A DNA stretch of 35,636 bases from Deltaproteobacteria bacterium (GTDB lineage: Bacteria > Desulfobacterota > Dissulfuribacteria > Dissulfuribacterales > QOAL01), in contig JALSNW010000027.1 in the NCBI GenBank assembly GCA_026986785.1, positions 1-35,636 on the forward strand, written 5' to 3'. Every line of letters starts with the position of its first letter. Positions within the stretch are counted from its first letter, which is position 1. Below the pieces are notes generated by a model. The model was given only the letters and a program-made list of their open reading frames with translations, was not told where the DNA came from and ran no database searches. Shown piece by piece: positions 2,232-14,757 of the stretch. Position numbers and translations under genes: made by a program.

Positions 2232-3689
2232 ATGGATAAGGTAATAAACATTCAGCCGGTCACTCGGATAGAGGGACATGCCAGTATTGCCATTCACCTG
2301 GACGACAATGGCAATGTCCACGAAACCAGACTGCACATCATGTCGCTCAGGGGCTTTGAAAAATTCATAGAGGGCCGACCTGCGGAAGAGGTGCCAAGGA
2401 TAGTCAACAGGATATGTGGGATATGTCCGTGGATGCATCATCTCGCAGCCTGTAAGGCAGTGGATGCCTGCTTCGGCATTACGCCTCCACCAGCTGGGCA
2501 CAGGCTTAGGGAACTGTGCCAGGTAATGGCCCATATAAGTGACAAGATCCTCCATTTCTTTTTCCTGGCAGCCCCCGACTTCGTCATGGGCCCAGATGGA
2601 CACTACAGTGTAAGGAACATAATGGGGATCGTAAAAAAGGCCCCGGAGCTGGCATCAAAGGTGGTGAAGATGCGCCAACTCGGCCAGAATATGCTGGAAC
2701 GATTTGCAGGAAAGGCCATCCATCCCATAGCCGGGGTCACAGGGGGATTTGCAAAGCCCATGCTGGAGGGGGAAAGAAAAGAACTCACCAATGGGGCAAG
2801 GCAACTGCTCGACTTTGCCCTCTACGGCCTTGACTATGCCAAAAAGAATATCTTCAGCCAGTATGAAGAACTCATAGAAGAATTGGGGGCCATAGAAACT
2901 GGATTTTTGGGGACCGTGGACACCCAGGATAGTCTCAGGCTCTATGATGGAAAGTTAAAGCTCATGAAGCCTGATGGGACCTATACCAAATTCAGCAGTG
3001 AAAATTATACAGATTTCATAGAGGAACACGTAGCACCTTGGTCCTACGCCAAGATGCCCTACGCAAAGGTTTGGGGTGAAGGCTTCTCACTGGATCTCGA
3101 TGGCCCGAAAGGCATATACAGGACGAACACCCTGGCGAGAATCAACGTGGCAGACAAGATGGCCACTCCCCATGCCCAGGCCGCCCTTGAAGAATTCAGA
3201 GACAAATTTGGTCGACCTGCCCAAAGCACCTTGCTTTATCATTGGGCCAGGCTTATAGAGCTGGTCTATGCCTGTGAAAGGACGGTAGAGATCCTGGAAG
3301 ATGACCAGATCACGGACCCAGAGGTTAGGGTTGCCTCTGAGCCCAGGGCAGGTAGAGGAATAGGCTGCGTAGAGGCACCAAGGGGCACGCTCATTCACGA
3401 TTATACTACTGACGAAAATGGTTGCATCACAAGCGCCAACATGATCGTTGGAACTACACACAATATTGCCCCCATGAACCTGAGTGTTGGCATGGCAGCC
3501 AGGTCCCTCATCAAGAAAGGTCGAATAAACGAAGGACTGCTCAACAGGATCGAGATGGCGGTCCGCGCCTATGATCCGTGAATCTCTTGTGCCACCCACC
3601 GCCTGGACGGCGGCCCACCAGTTACGATTTCGGTCATAGATTCGAGAGGGGAGCTTGTTGCACGCATAGACAACTACCAGGAGGCATGA
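2232..3689 (+). CDS. mvhA: MvhA/VhuA, [NiFeSe] hydrogenase large subunit, selenoprotein (UGA 3579-3581 = Sec450)
   Basis: Catalytic subunit of the Mvh hydrogenase. The N-terminal nickel-ligand motif is RICGICPWMHH. The second ligand motif, normally DPCxxCxxH, appears as DP-UGA-ISCATH, so the first Cys is replaced by UGA. A conventional reading would end after DP and leave an enzyme without half of its nickel ligands. Reading on gives 485 residues ending at TGA 3687. Residues 457-485 would be the tail removed after His456 by the maturation endopeptidase. A SECIS-like hairpin follows at 3599-3613. Methanogen Vhu/Fru hydrogenases and several deltaproteobacterial enzymes carry Sec at this same position. 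The ATG at 2232 is preferred over the TTG at 2217 because GGAGG lies 8 nt before it. The 3' end overlaps an ATG of the next gene. Confidence 0.95.
3599..3613 (+). promoter_or_regulatory. Bacterial SECIS hairpin of mvhA
   Basis: A five-pair all-GC stem, CCGCC (3599-3603) with GGCGG (3609-3613), encloses the loop TGGAC. The loop begins 22 nt after the UGA, exactly the distance found in mvhD. The loop again has GGA in its centre and G at position 2. The stem is shorter than in mvhD but strong. Confidence 0.8.
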
Positions 3690-12787: not shown

Positions 12788-12816
12788 TTGACACTGACAG
12801 CACTGCTTCTTATTAT
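12788..12816 (+). promoter_or_regulatory. Sigma70-type promoter of tRNA-Gly
   Basis: A perfect -35 TTGACA (12788-12793) and TATTAT (12811-12816) are separated by 17 bp. The tRNA starts 22 bp downstream of the -10. This is the best promoter match in the window. Confidence 0.75.
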
Positions 12817-12838: not shown

Positions 12839-12913
<75 letters not shown>

Positions 12914-12929: not shown

Positions 12930-12954
12930 GGGCAGCCACTGCTGCCCTTTTTTT
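12930..12954 (+). terminator. Intrinsic terminator after tRNA-Gly
   Basis: Seven-pair stem GGGCAGC (12930-12936) and GCTGCCC (12941-12947) with a CACT loop, followed by seven T residues. The cytochrome gene starts only 18 bp later, so the end of this terminator nearly touches that gene's start codon. Confidence 0.9.
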
Positions 12955-12972: not shown

Positions 12973-14757
12973 ATGCATCCGAGACGCAGACTGCTTACCC
13001 TTGCCATCTTATTCTTCTCCCTTGCCTTTCATTCCCTCTTCCCCTGTACTGCTGTCCCACCCTGTCAGGCAGCAGCAGTAGACTCACCTTCCAAGGTCAG
13101 CACGACTGCCAGTGGCCAGATAGATATGTGTCTTTCTTGCCACGACGAAAGGCCGGATAGAGCCCATGGCAGAAAGGTGCTGGGTTGTTTCTCCTGTCAT
13201 CTTGGAAATCCCCTTACAGGCTCTGCAAAACTTGCCCACAAGGGCATGGTCTTAAATCCTGGAGAGCTTTATATAGTCTCCAAGACATGTGGCCAGGAAG
13301 GATGCCATACCGACCAGGTAAAGAGGGTGAAAAAGTCTCTCATGGCCACCAATAGAGGGATAATAAGCACCCTTCGCTATTACTGGAACGAGAGCAAGGA
13401 CCATGATGCCGACCTCACAGTGGAAAAGCTCCTCAAATCCGATCTGGATACCCCTGCCATCGATTACTATAGGAAACTGTGTGGTACCTGTCACCTCTGG
13501 CTCAAGAAGCATACCCTGCCGGGCTTCCTTGCAGAGAAAGGTGGAGGCTGCACCACCTGTCATTTCTATAAACCTGGAGTTGGCAAGGATGGGAAAAAGA
13601 CAAACCATCCCATGATCACGAAACACATCCCCATGAAAAACTGTATAAGATGCCATAATAGAAGCGGCAGGATTGGCATTGCTTACAAGGGGATTTATGA
13701 GGCCGAAGGCTATGGCACCCCTTTCGAGGATGGAGACGTATCTGAAGGCCAACTCTCTGATGGCAGATATATAAAAAGGCTAGAGCCAGACATACACTTT
13801 AAGAAAGGCCTAATCTGTATTGATTGCCATAATCAAAAAGAGATAATGGGAGATGGCAATGAAAAGGCCCATTTCGAGGAGCAGTTGGAGATAACCTGCA
13901 CCACCTGCCATGACGGCAGACAAAGGCTCGAAAAGATCTTTGAGGAAGACATCAAGAGACCCAAGTATCCGCTTTTGACCAACCTTGTGAAAAAAAATGG
14001 CAACTTTTTCTTAAAGGGGAAAAAAGACCAAAAACTTCACCCCCTACACCGTTTTCTGGACACTGCTTGCAGACATCCCGTGCATGAAAGGCTTGCATGC
14101 CAGGCTTGTCACAGCAAATGGGTCCCCCAATGTTATGGCTGTCATGTCGTTAGTGACAAGTCCAAGGATCAGCTCGACAAGCTCTCCAACAAACAAACAC
14201 CTGGCCGCTGGGAGGAATTCAGGTCGTTTATGAGGTATGAAGTCCCTTCTCTCGGCATCAAAAAGGACTACAAAACCCGGCAAGACAAGGTGGTTATCAT
14301 AGTTCCAGGTTGACAGGACTTCATCTCCTTTCTGGATGAAAGGGGTAACTGGAGGGGTGATTTCAGGCGCATGACCATCTCATGGATGGATCCTCACACT
14401 ACCTCCAAAGAATCGAGAAGTTGTATAGACTGCCACACCGATCCCAAGGCCTTGGGACTTGGGGCAGGCTCGTTGGTTAAGATAAAAGGTAGCTGGCGAT
14501 TAGTGCCAGCAACTTCAAAAAGCAGAGACAGACGGTTGAACATCCCCAGGTTAGACGGCTTTGTGGACATCTCGGGAAAGCCCCTCGTGCTTACTTCCAG
14601 AAAGGACCTGAGGCCATTTGACGCTGCCGAGCTTAAAAGGATATTGGATGTAGGCCAATGCCTGATATGCCATAAAGACTTCGATGACAAGGTTATGAAA
14701 AACTGGAACAGCCTCTCACCACCCAAGCCCTGTAAATTTTTCTTAAAGACAAGATAG
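12973..14757 (+). CDS. Secreted dodecahaem cytochrome c, probable selenoprotein (UGA 14311-14313 = Sec447)
   Basis: An electron-carrying multihaem protein outside the cytoplasm. The N-terminus is a Sec signal (MHPRRRLLTLAILFFSLAF, cleavage near CQAAA). Eleven CxxCH haem sites are present: CLSCH, CFSCH, CGTCH, CTTCH, CIRCH, CIDCH, CTTCH, CQACH, CYGCH, CIDCH and CLICH. One CxxxxCH site (CGQEGCH) lies between the second and third of these, giving twelve potential haems. A conventional reading ends at TGA 14311 after IIVPG, leaving out the last two haem motifs. The same frame continues without a stop for 148 codons (QDFISFLDE onward) through CIDCH and CLICH to TAG 14755. An 8-pair hairpin with a TGGAT loop follows the UGA. 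The total length is 594 residues. The ATG at 12973 has only a weak ribosome site. A longer frame open across the tRNA is not coding. I do not recognise the exact cytochrome family. Confidence 0.85.
14325..14345 (+). promoter_or_regulatory. Bacterial SECIS hairpin of the cytochrome gene
   Basis: CCTTTC (14327-14332) pairs perfectly with GAAAGG (14338-14343) around the loop TGGAT, and a U-G and a C-G pair extend it to eight pairs. The loop begins 19 nt after the UGA. Loop size and the central GGA are the same as in the mvhD and mvhA elements of this window, which supports a real read-through signal. Confidence 0.78.

Follow-up and report, generated by a model that had tools for sequence, protein, structure and literature searches.

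The cytochrome gene and its surroundings

The window considered here, a stretch of 35,636 nt from a member of the Dissulfuribacterales, carries at 12973..14757 a gene for a c-type cytochrome of 594 residues and twelve haems that very probably has selenocysteine (Sec) at residue 447. It lies on the forward strand, as do all the elements given with coordinates in this section. The gene starts with ATG at 12973 and stops with TAG at 14755-14757, and its single interruption is an in-frame TGA at 14311-14313 (codon 447). The earlier note had described this UGA as splitting a secreted multihaem cytochrome, which holds, and had stated that the frame runs on for 148 codons and adds two further CxxCH sites; the frame is indeed open beyond the UGA, although 147 sense codons were counted before the TAG, and the two sites are at residues 484 and 563. 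A run of 147 sense codons would be expected by chance with a probability of about 4e-4 at 47% GC.

Altogether there are twelve haem-binding motifs, of which eleven are CxxCH (residues 53, 72, 170, 193, 224, 282, 309, 376, 387, 484 and 563) and one, that of haem 3, is CxxxxCH (residue 106). The motifs of haem 11 (CIDCH, residues 484-488, 14422..14436) and haem 12 (CLICH, residues 563-567, 14659..14673) are both 3' of the UGA, and an annotation stopping at that codon would lose two haems of the protein. An N-terminal signal peptide (12973..13080) is predicted by inspection of the sequence, with RRR, a hydrophobic run and QAAA-V, and residues 3-22 were helical in a first AlphaFold2 model built from 23 rows. 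The product would then be secreted, and be either periplasmic or associated with the outer membrane. That first model (pLDDT 52) was set aside, and the one used here was based on a 108-row alignment and had a mean pLDDT of 89.9. It predicts a beta-rich domain between haems 10 and 11 (14122..14385), with residue 447 midway along a long strand. No credible match to the predicted fold was found with Foldseek and VIA-align, and the matches from a sequence search of solved structures were weak, the majority being to other multihaem proteins.

Directly upstream of the cytochrome is a gene for tRNA-Gly(GCC) (12839..12913), preceded by a sigma-70-like promoter, TTGACA-17-TATTAT (12788..12816, a consensus match only), and separated from the cytochrome by an intrinsic terminator, GGGCAGC-CACT-GCTGCCC-T7 (12930..12954), so that expression of the cytochrome may depend on read-through of this terminator. 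The same tRNA is found upstream in most loci of the order, usually with an intervening terminator, and the arrangement was not seen in the Thermodesulfobacteria or Desulfobulbales sampled. The neighbours are an aspartokinase-like gene (judged by sequence inspection), the tRNA-Gly gene and a diguanylate cyclase. Across the loci compared no conserved operon partner was found, the only widely shared protein neighbour being an unrelated gene in Desulfobulbales loci. The gene thus stands alone, and what can be said of its function rests on resemblance to its superfamily.

Probable selenocysteine at codon 447

Around 50 distinct relatives have an in-frame TGA exactly at codon 447, in the motif VPG-U-QD. 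When 60 relatives were searched, nearly every full orthologue from the order of the window was found to have exactly one in-frame TGA, always in the context PG-U-Q/E-D; the exceptions are G027 and G032, both of which have the cysteine codon TGT at this position. In a collection of named genomes, the carriers of TGA are metagenome-assembled genomes (MAGs) from the group of the window, the isolate Thermosulfurimonas dismutans S95, and MAGs of Thermodesulfatator and Thermosulfurimonas, and 16 rows from Thermodesulfobacteria have TGA at codon 447. The Desulfobulbales clade, cable bacteria included, has cysteine in all 55 of its 55 rows (TPGCQD), and cysteine is also present in all paralogues, including that of the window itself, and in the ExtM of the Geobacter type. 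A phylum-wide sample revealed the cytochrome in 42 of 395 genomes, adding more TGA carriers outside the order. The alignment of cysteine or selenocysteine at residue 447, which the earlier note had proposed to look for among homologues, is therefore what this column displays, and by this comparison the putative selenocysteine is shown to take the place of the invariant PG-C-Q cysteine of the superfamily. One divergent homologue, L161 (genome G203), has SPCQV in place of PGCQ, and QrcA occurs in the same genome.

The earlier note had also pointed to a hairpin with a TGGAT loop following the UGA, and this proved to be real. On the forward strand, a core of bSECIS type (14327..14343) has a six-pair stem (14327-14332 with 14338-14343) and the loop UGGAU (14333-14337), 19 nt 3' of the UGA, so that, as is required of a selenoprotein gene, a hairpin with a G in its apical loop lies close downstream of the codon. 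All five inner pairs are formed in 31 of 35 distinct Sec sequences from the order of the window versus none of 17 Cys homologues. The stem co-varies: at pair 21-29, nine or ten sequences have C-G instead of U-A, and at pair 18-32 C-G is replaced by G-C or U-A. Cells in which both sides had changed numbered 14 against a shuffled mean of 4.7, a value that none of 500 shuffles reached and that also exceeded the slid controls, with the proviso that both kinds of control remove relatedness among the sequences only in part. Folding energies discriminate weakly, with a modest excess over synonymous-codon shuffles (mean z of -0.96 for Sec and -0.45 for Cys genes); the excess is small because the protein sequence, being conserved, in itself favours formation of the hairpin. 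In the Thermodesulfobacteria sequences that were compared there is no UGGAU loop, and a different hairpin lies a little further downstream. One Cys orthologue, L098 from Desulfobulbaceae LH_M19, has a SECIS-like hairpin (CCCUCC-UGGAU-GAGGAGGG) that could be either chance or a relic.

The genome of the window has selB, above the curated cut-off, and a tRNA-Sec with anticodon TCA (74.9 bits), two of the factors that the earlier note had proposed to look for. Among 35 genomes tested selB was found in 34, including those of both Cys exceptions; of these two, G027 also has a tRNA-Sec, and none was found in G032, a genome that is 90% complete. Four genomes (G008, G022, G023 and G024) have a second SelB-like gene above the curated cut-off, and G285 has two tRNA-Sec matches above cut-off. 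Two other genes of the window contain in-frame UGA codons, as had been claimed, at 1046-1048 in a VhuD/HdrA2-like gene and at 3579-3581 in a VhuA/VhuU-like hydrogenase gene (DPUxxC); they lie 10-13 kb away and both belong to known selenoprotein families.

Could the UGA instead be a true stop, leaving a ten-haem cytochrome followed by a separate or decayed gene? UGA does end other genes of the window in the normal way. This reading is nevertheless very improbable, given that the frame beyond the UGA has two haem motifs and is highly conserved at the protein level in some 50 relatives, that Cys orthologues are continuous through position 447, and that the hairpin is kept only in the Sec genes. 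It is scarcely credible that UGA has been reassigned to one of the standard amino acids or that the codon is a sequencing error, both being already contradicted by the occurrence of a single TGA in each gene, invariably in the Cys column, across many independent assemblies, and by UGA serving as an ordinary stop in 6 of the 19 other genes of the window, which argues against a changed code. The outcomes that the earlier note had named as speaking against selenocysteine, insofar as they could be checked here, turned out the other way: Cys homologues read through the position, and selB and tRNA-Sec are present.

UGA-encoded selenocysteine is therefore strongly supported, because TGA and Cys codons share column 447, because the hairpin shows covariation and is missing from the Cys genes, and because the genome has selB and tRNA-Sec. 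We hold with high confidence that this is a secreted dodecahaem cytochrome of the ExtM superfamily with the UGA at 14311-14313 decoded as selenocysteine, a confidence that applies to identity and decoding. Decoding would be carried out by SelB and tRNA-Sec, directed by the hairpin immediately downstream.

In a 122-row tree, the two Cys exceptions group with every Sec row in one clade (support 98) that adjoins a Cys clade, with the Cys paralogues outside; it came from a quick search, and several long branches were flagged by the program. The Sec and Cys labels change three times on this tree compared to a mean of 39.5 in shuffles. The simplest history implied is a single gain of selenocysteine from cysteine, in the ancestor that Dissulfuribacterales and Thermodesulfobacteria share, followed by two reversions. 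Two members of the order would thus have returned to cysteine, with at least one of them (G027) still having both selB and tRNA-Sec.

Relationship to ExtM and known selenocysteine cytochromes

The nearest NCBIfam model is ExtM (NF040943), at 288.5 bits. Assignment as an ExtM equivalog was rejected, as the cut-off is 800 and the gene lies outside any ext cluster. Profile scans gave no match, at E up to 1, to either ExtKL (NF040886) or the octahaem tetrathionate reductase (TIGR04315). The resemblance to ExtM of Geobacter (GSU2935) is nonetheless extensive: the two are homologous over their full length, have twelve haems, and ExtM has an invariant PGCQ at the Sec position. They differ in that ExtM has cysteine where this cytochrome has selenocysteine, in the CxxxxCH motif of haem 3 in the latter, in residue 366 (histidine in ExtM, cysteine here), and in the location of ExtM within the ext cluster. 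In Geobacter, that cluster has been tied to the reduction of selenite and tellurite (PMC5877670). The homologues of cable bacteria, where ExtM has been named (PMC11976967), and of other Desulfobulbales are orthologues with about 46-50% identity, but have Cys447 (TPGCQD) and lack the conserved hairpin.

Two other multihaem cytochromes with selenocysteine are known. ExtKL is likewise a secreted multihaem c-type cytochrome with Sec, but has five haems (PMC5877670) rather than twelve and is a separate gene. It was not found in the genome of the window, and 17 of 47 relatives have an ExtKL gene with an in-frame TGA (loci L176-L183 are such selenoprotein genes in relatives of this genome). The second is the octahaem cytochrome of the tetrathionate reductase family (TIGR04315), which has a Sec form (PMC13188914) and, judged by its name, eight haems. 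A 2026 review of 119 selenoprotein families or subfamilies gives these two as the Sec multihaem cytochromes (PMC13188914); a word search of it and most of its table give 'cytochrome' three times, in no case for an ExtM-like protein. The earlier view that selenocysteine is uncommon in multihaem cytochromes thus needs dividing: the kind is known, since ExtKL and the octahaem cytochrome are already listed, and the ExtM-like dodecahaem family, absent from that list as far as it was covered, appears to be a new addition to a small set. No earlier report of this Sec family was found in the openly accessible literature.

The distribution of QrcA differs between genomes with and without the cytochrome, with a match in 1 of 42 and 134 of 353, respectively (Fisher p about 4e-7, a contrast confounded by lineage). 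The scarcity agrees with what has been published on these orders (PMC10553843), and the link may reflect ancestry alone.

Possible roles of residue 447

Residue 447 is the only non-haem cysteine position common to orthologues, paralogues and ExtM. Alongside it, H212, H275, H371, H475 and M/H292, all outside the haem motifs, are conserved in every subfamily, and are plausible distal haem ligands. For the twelve haems we count about eight conserved His or Met residues that could fill the second axial position, and a thiolate or selenolate ligand at 447 is therefore plausible. The residue would be a chalcogenolate at a haem, in the form we favour a haem-side selenolate acting as an axial ligand or contacting substrate, in a cytochrome that would be an electron-transfer hub or a reductase. 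Selenium would lower the potential of the site and raise its nucleophilicity. That Sec447 is the distal axial ligand of one haem, and so a natural selenolate-ligated haem, is our tentative preference, held at rather less than even confidence; the selenolate-ligated haems found in a literature search were in engineered P450s (PMC11273360). Related bacteria, some of them cultivable, offer natural pairs of Sec and Cys forms, with which the contribution of selenium to the haem site can be examined by experiment.

Haem ligation, catalysis and a Se-S bond had all been raised as possibilities in the earlier note. A contact with substrate beside an open haem is the alternative to ligation. Here Sec447 would be catalytic, with a selenolate next to an open or weakly ligated haem attacking or binding a sulfur or metalloid substrate. 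Cysteine acts in this way in some thiosulfate- and sulfite-converting cytochromes. We regard this as a serious possibility that falls short of probable. Redox-active sites are the usual place of selenocysteine, the Sec carriers include sulfur disproportionators (Thermosulfurimonas dismutans, PMC4911364; Dissulfuribacterales, PMC10553843), and the link of the Geobacter ExtM cluster with selenite and tellurite reduction (PMC5877670) points the same way. The residue is, however, just as invariant in the Cys paralogues and ExtM, which come from lineages that differ in metabolism, and no member of the family has a known substrate.

An unlikely third role is that of a structural or regulatory redox switch, in which Sec447 would be joined by a selenosulfide bridge to a partner such as Cys366 (14068..14070, forward strand). 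Cys366 is present in every orthologue, whether of the Sec or Cys form, which would suit such a partner, but Cys447 is kept in the paralogues and in Geobacter-type ExtM, where residue 366 is something else (histidine in ExtM, other residues in the paralogues), and no further non-haem cysteine is common to all subfamilies. An obligatory Se-S bond is unlikely, since residue 447 is the sole such cysteine. Cys366 could instead be a further haem ligand.
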